A stretch of 23,036 nt of DNA from a virus. Below, piece by piece: positions 11,574 to 13,912 of the stretch (position 1 is its first letter; each line of letters begins with the position of its first letter). The stretch lies in IMG/VR virus record IMGVR_UViG_3300037070_001176, positions 1 to 23,036 of that record, one strand, 5' to 3'. Under the pieces are notes generated by a model. The model was not told the DNA's origin, did not search any database, and saw nothing but the letters and a program-made list of their open reading frames with translations. A program made the translations under genes and the position numbers.

Positions 11574-11602
11574 CTGATTCATATCGTTAATCTAATTCAT
11601 AA

Positions 11603-11641
11603 ATAGCCACTAGGACTAACAATCTTAGTGGCTATCTTTTT
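11603..11641 (+). terminator. Rho-independent terminator after the 222-residue gene
   Basis: ATAGCCACTA (11603-11612) pairs perfectly with TAGTGGCTAT (11626-11635), extendable by a few pairs, and a T-run follows at 11637-11641. It ends the monocistronic unit begun at P2. Confidence 0.85.
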
Positions 11642-12067
11642 GCTTTGAAACGGCATACTTTAGCTATCAATTGGAACTGCATAGTTGAAGTAGGTAACGC
11701 TCAGTTTAGCCGTTAAGGATTAGTCCGTCTTTATCTGTCCAAGTCAACTACGGTCAAGCTAGAGCCATTAACAGGCATCCTTAGACGGTTAGCCGATTCA
11801 CTTTCACTAGAATTCAAGACTAAGCCGGAATTAAGTCAGTTTAATACTAAAGGTTCAATTCAGGAGAATATTAAAAATGGTTGATGCCTTTAACCTGACT
11901 TTAATCTTGATTTAAGCTGACATTATCCTATCCTTTAAACTGGATATGAACGTTAACGGAAACCGCGTGTTTTCAGCACTTTAGCACTAAAGACCCTCTC
12001 TCCCCGACTATGTTAAAGCTTCTGTTTCTGTCGATTCAGGTTTTTGGAGTGTGTCAATGGTTTGACA

Positions 12068-12240
12068 GTGTAGTTTTTTCATACATTAGTATAATAATTA
12101 TATATATAAATAATACATATATAGAAAATATTACATACTAAAAATTACATAGGAAACAAACTACACACAGAGCAAAAATTACACACTGTCCTCCGTAGGC
12201 TACAATTACAATTTTCGTCAGACATGTAAAAACTACACAC
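12068..12240 (+). repeat. Iteron-like AAAAAYTACAYAC repeats beside A/T-rich DNA
   Basis: Forward copies of the core YTACAYA start at 12131, 12145, 12161, 12179 and 12233; the last three read CTACACA, TTACACA, CTACACA after A-runs. One inverted copy (GTGTAGTTTTTT) lies at 12068-12079. The A/T-rich tract TATAATAATTATATATATAA lies between the inverted and forward copies. Repeats beside an easily opened tract are typical where an initiator protein binds a replication origin. No initiator is recognised nearby, so the role is inferred. Confidence 0.6.
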
Positions 12241-12270
12241 TTGACTATAGGGGGGAGGGTATGATACGAT
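12241..12270 (+). promoter_or_regulatory. Early promoter P3 (TTGACT, 18 bp, TACGAT)
   Basis: TTGACT at 12241-12246, 18-base spacer containing a run of six G, TACGAT at 12265-12270 preceded by TGA. GGGTATGATACGATGT matches the -10 region of P1 in all but one base. It begins right after the last iteron-like repeat and probably drives the long rightward operon; transcription across an origin could also prime replication. Confidence 0.65.
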
Positions 12271-12416
12271 GTAAGTGCGTGTATTTTCAGTGGTTAGCGA
12301 CACGGAAACGTCCAGTTTAAAGGGCAGGTTAAAATCAGGTTAAATCAAGATTAATGGTAGGGCATAGGATGGATGCTTTGGATTAGAAGATAGAAATTGA
12401 TATTGGAGGAGAACAT

Positions 12417-12437
12417 ATGACCCGCAAACTATATTAA
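12417..12437 (+). other. Six-codon micro reading frame with strong ribosome site
   Basis: GGAGGAG lies 5 bases before an ATG that opens only MTRKLY before TAA. The ribosome site is better than that of most genes here, yet the frame is tiny. It may be a leader peptide for the transcript from P3, or the remains of a gene start. It lies 80 bases before the 51-residue gene. Confidence 0.35.
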
Positions 12438-12467
12438 TTAGTGAACTAGAATAATAAATCTTGCAAT

Positions 12468-12504
12468 CTATCTATGATTTATATATAATAGGACTCATAG
12501 ATAG
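12468..12504 (+). promoter_or_regulatory. Hairpin just before the ribosome site of the 51-residue gene
   Basis: CTATCTATGA (12468-12477) and TCATAGATAG (12495-12504) form a perfect 10-bp stem with a 17-base A/T-rich loop. The AGAGG ribosome site starts 4 bases after the stem and the ATG follows at 12518. Position suggests RNA processing or control of translation. There is no T-run, so it is not a classic terminator. Confidence 0.55.
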
Positions 12505-12517
12505 GTTAGAGGATTTT

Positions 12518-12673
12518 ATGGTTATGACTAATAAGTGCTACTGGGTAGTTGGTAATGAAAAATTTACTAACTATATTGACGCTGATAAGCGTAGAACAGA
12601 AACAGGTAAGGATTTATTTCTTATCACTACTAAAGAAGATAAGGTATTTATTCCTTATCCAGACAGAAGCTAA
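12518..12673 (+). CDS. 51-residue hypothetical protein
   Basis: ATG at 12518 with AGAGG five bases upstream; a second ATG at 12524 is also possible. The product contains CYWVVGNEKFTNYIDADKRR and ends VFIPYPDRS, a short mixed beta protein with no known family. A TTG reading from 12461 would run through the upstream hairpin and is less likely. It is the first clear gene after promoter P3. Confidence 0.6.
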   Translation: MVMTNKCYWVVGNEKFTNYIDADKRRTETGKDLFLITTKEDKVFIPYPDRS

Positions 12674-12922
12674 AAATCAAAATGGCAAACAAACTAGTAA
12701 CCTGCGAAATTGATACTTTAATGGATTACTTGTGATACGAGATTAGCTAGAGTGTTTCTGATTTATTAATGTGATAAATCAGTAGGTCCATTGAATGGGC
12801 GTAAAAGACTCCGCAGATTGCAACTGTTGAATAAACTAATCAGTTTATAAATTACAAGTAATCCATTAAGTTATCAATTCTAAAGGATAGAAAATGAATA
12901 AGTTAGTAACCTGCGAAACTTG
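12669..12922 (+). repeat. Direct duplication of a gene start around a structured element
   Basis: About 44 bases from 12669 resemble those from 12880. Both hold CTAAA, an ATG, then NKLVTCE codons, with TAGTAACCTGCGAAA identical at 12695-12709 and 12904-12918. The downstream copy is the real start of the 244-residue gene and has AAGGA. The upstream copy has no Shine-Dalgarno and runs into a stop after 17 codons (MANKLVTCEIDTLMDYL). The hairpin element at 12708-12879 lies exactly between the two. Confidence 0.8.
12708..12879 (+). ncRNA. Structured RNA-like element with 29-bp closing stem
   Basis: Bases 12708-12736 pair with 12851-12879 over 29 positions with a single mismatch and two G-U wobbles. 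Inside are three further hairpins: CTGATTTAT/ATAAATCAG (12758-12766 with 12774-12782, perfect), GTCCAT/ATGGGC (12786-12791 with 12795-12800, one wobble), and ATAAACT/AGTTTAT (12831-12837 with 12842-12848, perfect). The closing stem ends 3 bases before AAGGA and 14 before the ATG of the next gene. It may be a cis-acting leader, a processed small RNA or a mobile-like element. No known RNA family is recognised; it lacks the motifs I would expect of a tRNA, hammerhead or group I core. Confidence 0.65.
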
Positions 12923-13628
12923 CCCGGCCCTAATTTTGGATAGCTTGTTAAAGGTTATCCAAACGACTAAAGGACCGATGAAAGTATGTAAGAAATGCTT
13001 TCAGGAGCATGAGTCTGGAACTGTTAAGAATGAGTTAATTACTAATCAAATACCAGAAGTCTTTCCGGAACAGAGAAAGAAGGATGAAGCACCGGAAGTG
13101 AATGCTTTCCTTCAATCTATCTCATACGTATCTAATCCGCAAGAAGTACCCCATCCTAAAGAACCATCTAAGAAGTTTACACAATCTGAATTGTTTGCAG
13201 AGTATCTCAGAGATGAGCAACTAAAAATCTCTGACTTATTTAAAGATGGACATGAGCCATTCATTGCTTATGCACAGCTAGAGGCAAGGATACAGTTGCT
13301 TGAATCAATTGTATTTGAAGCTAAAGTTAGAGCATCAGAAGCTACTAAAGTTAAACGCGAACTAGACGCTAAGTCAGGTAAGAATAGATGGGATAAGGAA
13401 CGTAGAGGAGAGAATAAAGCTAATCTAGTAGACCCTAGAGACGGTCATATGGATAGCCGTAAGGGTAAGGATAAACGGTCTATTCTTACTAAGGTTGAGA
13501 CAGTAGTTAAAGGTATGATGGATATTGGGACGGAGGATGAAGAGATTATAACTATGCTTAGTTCTAGTGGTAAGTTTAAAGGTATTGAAATTCGTAATGC
13601 TATTGAGAAGTTTAAGGTTAGTTCTTAG
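12894..13628 (+). CDS. 244-residue zinc-finger protein, putative DNA/RNA-binding
   Basis: ATG at 12894 with AAGGA 6-10 bases upstream. The N-terminus is a zinc finger (C7, C10, C32, C35; TCETC and VCKKC). A polar linker rich in Pro/Glu follows. A helical part (about 95-160) contains ELFAEYLRDEQLKISDLF and ARIQLLESIVFEAKVRASEA. A basic tract follows (KSGKNRWDKERRGENKAN), and the C-terminal stretch near GTEDEEIITMLSSSGKFKG looks like a small helix-turn-helix. A nucleic-acid-binding regulator is plausible. Its start region is duplicated upstream, which could matter if the protein binds its own mRNA. No named family is recognised. Confidence 0.75.
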   Translation: MNKLVTCETCPALILDSLLKVIQTTKGPMKVCKKCFQEHESGTVKNELITNQIPEVFPEQRKKDEAPEVNAFLQSISYVSNPQEVPHPKEPSKKFTQSELFAEYLRDEQLKISDLFKDGHEPFIAYAQLEARIQLLESIVFEAKVRASEATKVKRELDAKSGKNRWDKERRGENKANLVDPRDGHMDSRKGKDKRSILTKVETVVKGMMDIGTEDEEIITMLSSSGKFKGIEIRNAIEKFKVSS

Positions 13629-13642
13629 ATAGGAGTTAGCTT

Positions 13643-13912
13643 ATGAGTATATTTATTCCTATTATTCCACCTGGTTATATTTTCGTTACTAATCACGGAA
13701 ATATTACTAATGAGCTACAAGCAAATAGTGAAACAGCTAAATTCATTGGAGTGCCAATAGAGGATGTTATCTCATTAGCTAATATGATACCATCAGCTAA
13801 ATTTAGCTCATATTGTTTAGAAAAACATAAATCTATTGTAGATAGAAAAATCGCTAGTATTAAACATTTACTAGCTGAACTATCTAAGTTAGATGATGAT
13901 GATTTTGAATAA
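13643..13912 (+). CDS. 89-residue hypothetical protein
   Basis: ATG at 13643 with AGGAG 7 bases upstream. It begins with a hydrophobic stretch, MSIFIPIIPPGYIFVTNHGN, continues with mixed helices and ends in an acidic LSKLDDDDFE tail. It is not long enough or hydrophobic enough for a secure membrane call. It is followed immediately by a strong hairpin. Function unknown. Confidence 0.65.
   Translation: MSIFIPIIPPGYIFVTNHGNITNELQANSETAKFIGVPIEDVISLANMIPSAKFSSYCLEKHKSIVDRKIASIKHLLAELSKLDDDDFE

Follow-up and report, generated by a model that had tools for sequence, protein, structure and literature searches.

Why should a long, strongly folded inverted repeat separate two copies of the start of one and the same phage gene? 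The locus that raises this question lies in a 23,036-base virus record of IMG/VR (IMGVR_UViG_3300037070_001176), which is referred to here, at its full length, as the window. TerL and other genes occupy the - strand in the left part of the window; the + strand carries an early operon from near position 12,460 onwards. The structured element is located between the first cistron of this operon, which found no family match in Pfam or PHROG, and a gene for a 244-residue zinc-ribbon protein (Table 1). A promoter-like site precedes the operon. As sites of this kind are about as frequent in the region as expected by chance, the role of this one as the early-operon promoter is suggested by its position. 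Further upstream, a 58-nt inverted repeat (11887-11944 / 12311-12368, 79% complementary) encloses an A+T-rich stretch of 366 bp in which no convincing gene is present, and is possibly an origin or control region.

Table 1. Coordinates of the early-operon features in the window, and of the stems that enclose open reading frames in related phages.
Feature	Position	Strand	Basis
Promoter-like site TTGCAA-17-TATAAT, ahead of early operon	12461-12489	+	consensus match 10/12
First cistron of early operon, 51 aa	12518-12673	+	ORF list
Upstream copy of gene start, 17-codon ORF MANKLVTCEIDTLMDYL and stop	12682-12735	+	sequence; direct repeat
5' arm of closing stem (AATTGATACTTTAATGG...)	12708-12736	+	inverted repeat; stem type common to other phages
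Core RNA, three-way junction	12750-12811	+	near-invariant in L057 and L061; P2 double changes; model match
P1	12750-12757 / 12804-12811	+	
P2	12758-12767 / 12773-12782	+	
P3	12783-12791 / 12795-12803	+	
Core hairpin P4, GCAG/CUGU, 7-nt loop	12813-12827	+	alignments; fold
Unpaired GAATA, conserved, end of core	12829-12833	+	alignment
A+U hairpin between core and 3' arm, window only	12831-12850	+	fold
3' arm of closing stem, ending 14 nt before ATG	12851-12879	+	inverted repeat
Ribosome site AAAGGA of downstream copy	12882-12887	+	sequence
244-aa zinc-ribbon gene (CxxC...CxxC)	12894-13628	+	iterative profile search; alignment
ORF-enclosing stems, L004	3632-4068, 4073-4509		
ORF-enclosing stem, L013	7075-7370		
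ORF-enclosing stems, L042	5667-5911, 5914-6193, 6197-6470		
ORF-enclosing stems, L053	5632-5955, 5975-6348, 6351-6627		

An earlier note, made from the letters alone, had described a structured element with a 29-bp closing stem and three internal hairpins. Our analysis bears out the element and its stem: the two 29-nt arms at 12708-12879 are 90% complementary and lie 114 nt apart. The RNA of the + strand from 12700 to 12890 folds at -61.3 kcal/mol (z -7.3), a value that none of 200 shuffled sequences equalled, and the fold of the element on the - strand is weaker (-50.6). Hairpins are indeed present in the interior, but in the light of the comparison with other phages described below they are more aptly seen as a three-way junction, in which P1 closes P2 and P3, followed by the hairpin P4 and a further A+U hairpin. 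The 17-codon upstream ORF crosses nearly all of the 5' arm.

The two copies of the gene start bracket the element in the way that the note had stated. They form a direct repeat (12688-12709 / 12897-12918) of 22 nt with 86% identity, 15 identical bases and a spacing of 209. The upstream copy reads MANKLVTCE from an ATG at 12682, stops at a TGA (12733-12735) after 17 codons and has no Shine-Dalgarno sequence, while the downstream copy, MNKLVTCE, alone has a ribosome site, AAAGGA, ahead of its ATG. The repeat score of 15 in the flanks was reached in none of 200 shuffles, and the other 15 elements that we compared score only 5-8, so that among the 16 the start duplication is confined to the window. 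The copies differ by one codon indel (GCA) and three substitutions, all of them synonymous; by our own count, over seven codons and with about 22% of the possible changes synonymous, three out of three would arise by chance in about 1% of cases. These 15 identical bases, three synonymous changes and one lost codon are what holds of the similarity of about 44 bases reported earlier, the rest being an A-rich stretch to which we attach little weight. There is modest support, from sequence comparison, for the view that both copies may have diverged as working gene starts.

The gene that follows the element belongs to a family with about 30 relatives directly upstream of a SNF2 helicase in this phage group, as found by iterative profile search. 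Many of these relatives have a start that overlaps the preceding stop codon or comes directly after it, without an evident ribosome site. The upstream copy in the window, which begins 8 nt past the stop of the first cistron, has a layout close to that of these relatives. Searched with the 244-aa protein alone, neither viral contigs nor phage records yielded a close relative, and a DNA search of phage records with 11600-13700 found no match.

The interior of the element, at 12750-12833, is a conserved RNA composed of the three-way junction of P1, P2 and P3 and a hairpin. This core recurs in two distant phages, L057 and L061, whose helicases are 34-35% identical to that of the window, in the form GAGUGUUUC - P2 - GUAGGUCCAUUGAAUGGGCGUAAANGACUCCGC ... 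AACU..UGAAUA..CUA. The best local DNA alignment between the window and either locus is the core itself, a stretch of 58-62 nt with 84% identity (E 2e-10 and 1.7e-11); the next-best has an E of 7e-4, and the core match is stronger than any coding match between these loci. The longest exact DNA match, 25 nt, also falls inside the core. An identical block of this length in phages whose proteins have diverged to about 35% identity suggests strong constraint, comparable to that on ribozymes, antiterminators or factor-binding RNAs.

The pattern of substitution within the core follows the proposed pairing. P1 is formed by GAGU-G-UUU and AAAN-G-ACUC around a GxG mismatch. P2 is variable: both sides are changed in seven of its 10 pairs over the three sequences, and sliding the P2 partners as a control abolishes the pairing. 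These are compensatory changes in relatives, the absence of which, according to the note, would have refuted its observation. P4 is GCUA/UAGU in L057 and L061, as against GCAG/CUGU in the window. P3 and the linker are invariant in sequence, and no variation occurs in the pairs of P1 or P3. Only three phages are known to have the core. Two of them, L057 and L061, are relatives, at about 80% in parts of their DNA, and therefore amount to one and a half witnesses instead of two; the covariation rests on P2 and P4. In both, the core sits directly 3' of a long stem instead of being enclosed by it.

A covariance model search, suggested in the note for the whole of 12708-12879, was made with the core. 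Among 83 sources (1.23 Mb) the core model matches only L057, L061 and the window (E 2e-20 for the window, which is one of the three source sequences of the model), the next match having an E of 5.9. The exact core pattern was found in IMG/VR only in the L057 and L061 contigs, and genome contigs held no match to the pattern. A looser pattern picked up nine further viral contigs, all of which fail the core model. Rfam release 15 gave no match at the gathering score, and permissive searches of it returned only weak, low-scoring matches or none. Because the nearest known elements differ in structure or lack a described core, we treat the core, which is absent from Rfam 15, as a candidate new RNA family.

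The closing stem has a wider distribution than the core. Its recurrence and the near-invariant core, neither of which was visible to the author of the note, are our principal results. Using a helicase alignment, we assembled 80 loci of the same broad phage group, and a strand-neutral scan for long inverted repeats over 1.18 Mb found 51 stems of usable complexity, compared with 0-1 in shuffled sequence. G-U exceeds A-C in 34 of these stems and the reverse holds in eight (p 7e-5), an excess that reflects selection on the sense RNA strand. Of the 51 stems, 48 are situated within, or almost within, the 6 kb upstream of the helicase, and 49 within 10 kb; none occurs in the 425 kb that span the helicase start to 6 kb past the helicase. 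A stem of this type is found near the early-operon front of at least 12 related phages, in many cases immediately ahead of a start codon. Such a stem is present in 20 of the 42 relatives with enough upstream DNA, so that not every relative has one.

The arms share a short motif, whereas the stems have neither termini nor size in common. Across 13 aligned stems the motif shows a U-G wobble in 12, a U-A pair in 12 and a GxG mismatch, otherwise a pair, in nine; because the scan selected for inverted repeats, the percentages of pairing are partly by construction, a caveat that applies to the pairing and not to the wobble or the mismatch. The window stem carries GATACUU/AAGUUAUC, in which a U-A pair replaces GxG, as in L013. 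Stems with large loops, that of the window among them, escape a covariance model built on the arms (R1); a purpose-made motif scan was therefore used, which gave 22 matches on the + strand, five on the - strand and one in shuffles. Viral contigs searched for the exact window arms with a free interior held no match, because the arm sequences diverge. Of the 16 elements in the comparison, nine have their end 1-35 nt ahead of a start codon. The stems of the window, L013, L042 and L046, four of these nine, precede relatives of the 244-aa gene, and in L046 and L073 a GAGG within the 3' arm stands at ribosome-site distance from the ATG. As a separate observation, nine long stems each wrap one small sense-strand ORF that fills 81-95% of the loop, several of them in tandem (Table 1).

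With moderate confidence, we interpret the element as a cis-acting structured RNA of the early operon, which would combine a processing or insulating stem with a factor-binding core and would bear the duplication as a trace of recombination. The 29-nt duplex would separate the upstream cistron from the next start and would be cut or bound as double-stranded RNA, an RNase III-like cleavage being its likeliest reader. RNase III processing stems are found in T7 early mRNA, in the lambda N leader and in pre-rRNA. Like these, the present stems are duplexes longer than 20 bp that lie close to ribosome sites and either separate cistrons or surround an RNA unit; the 29-nt arms of the window, with their sense-strand G-U bias, provide the duplex of about 20 bp or longer that characterizes such stems in a transcript. 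They differ in that the window stem is of the type with a conserved U-G / GxG motif, which to our knowledge is not an RNase III signature, and in that cleavage is here something that we infer. For the second module, the three-way-junction core (P1-P4), a conserved factor of the host or of the phage is the most likely binding partner, through which expression of the operon may be regulated in either direction. On the whole, we favour post-transcriptional control in cis through a stem of the RNase III type, and give less weight to an antiterminator of the put kind or an excised small RNA.

The duplicated start would not be a working part of this arrangement. It looks like the scar of an insertion that re-supplied a ribosome site and a start codon. 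A recombination may have joined the element, ribosome site and start codon, from a related allele, after codon 9 of the old gene; this gene would have been translationally coupled, and would have regained its start downstream of the element. More tentatively, the sequences allow the possibility that the front of the early operon is divided into units of RNA, every one of which has a closing stem of 25-34 nt and is excised or insulated as RNA, the unit in the window holding a new conserved ncRNA with a function of its own. Units with one small gene each stand three in tandem in L053 and L042, and two in L004.

Could the core be an antiterminator instead, binding the host RNA polymerase and allowing it to read through terminators? 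The put RNAs of HK022, of about 70 nt, form two stem-loops downstream of early promoters (PMC9378689), and the core resembles them as a short multi-hairpin phage RNA of similar place and size, close to where a long early operon begins, with sequence conserved beyond its pairing. By analogy this reading deserves consideration, yet we think it rather unlikely: the window has a three-way junction and a hairpin, not two stem-loops (the sequences themselves were not compared directly), Rfam revealed no resemblance, no intrinsic-terminator-like site occurs on the operon strand from the element to 16500, and the stems before many different start codons would stay unexplained. We are similarly doubtful, to a slightly greater degree, that cleavage of the closing stem excises the core to act in trans as a phage small RNA. 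The 29-nt duplex fully encloses the window core, in the layout of pre-rRNA processing stems, and the invariance of P3 and the linker would suit such a molecule; the cores of L057 and L061, however, lie outside the long stem.

The remaining readings had been raised in the note. It had proposed a mobile-like insertion that carries a copy of its target, and an insertion that brought a second gene start with it still accounts best for the duplication. A MITE-type DNA element with 29-bp terminal repeats is nevertheless improbable in spite of the inverted termini and the duplicated flank, because members of such a family share termini and show target-site duplications in several copies, while the present elements share neither termini nor size, keep to a fixed region in the operon, have mismatches biased to G-U on the sense strand and show a duplication in the window only. 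That the copied segment is the gene's own start, and that zinc ribbons can bind nucleic acid, might suggest a decoy or operator bound by the zinc-ribbon protein itself; as most of the approximately 30 phages with the gene have no such element before it, and the stem type also precedes unrelated genes, we regard this as very improbable. Least credible of all is a programmed translational bypass, in which ribosomes would leave at the first TGC-GAA and land at the second. The identical take-off and landing triplets around a structured gap do recall the bypass of T4 gene 60, but the landing copy in the window has its own AAAGGA and ATG and needs no jump, a bypass product would differ from the protein only by one additional residue, the first copy has no ribosome site and no stop at the take-off (its stop comes eight codons past the copied segment), and no other element of the stem type has the duplication. 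To all appearances the element is an undescribed regulatory RNA of the phage, and neither a site of ribosome jumping nor a simple decoy of the gene start.

The nearest described feature is the extended start-associated sequence (ESAS) of cluster K mycobacteriophages, an imperfect inverted repeat just upstream of start codons (PMC3203893). ESAS occur several times per genome, in the non-structural half only, have arms whose sequence differs between subclusters and are of unknown function (PMC3203893). The present stems are likewise often start-proximal and belong to the early region upstream of the helicase. However, ESAS have 17-bp arms and a 4-13 bp spacer beside a 13-bp SAS, GGGATAGGAGCCC (PMC3203893), whereas the recurrent stems have arms of about 25-30 nt, spacers of 41-118 nt and the conserved U-G wobble and GxG mismatch. 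The window stem, with 29-nt arms and a 114-nt spacer, falls within these ranges, and the SAS GGGATAGGAGCCC is absent between it and the ATG. The window element also holds a structured core, and none is described for ESAS. Together, the core and the recurrent stems suggest that, in a little-studied group of uncultivated phages, the early operon is subject to a layer of control by RNA processing or at start sites, and the core is compact enough to be accessible to in vitro testing.

In L057 (7337-7475), L061 (4366-4515) and L088 (560-640), the 3' arm GAGGTATCT can pair either with a downstream AGATACCTC or with its own 5' arm. The alternative pairing with AGATACCTC is a possible switch, but we mention it only as a lead, since another stretch scores best as partner of the 3' arm in L057.

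An alignment with relatives that lack the element might have exposed the empty site, as the note had anticipated. The nearest relative by TerL (68%), a 46,458-base contig covered by L005, L011 and L039, has no element, and its homologue of the 244-aa gene has no zinc-ribbon N-terminus; because both are missing, it offers no clean empty site. Genome contigs contain no relative of the helicase family, and no host is therefore named. The homologue (L039 8939-9349; also L005 311-724, - strand) is without the CxxC...CxxC N-terminus, and the zinc ribbon may thus be dispensable or modular. The TerL of the same relative (L005 8795-11533) has 912 residues, compared with 580 in the window, and carries an intein-like insert after its first 50 or so residues.
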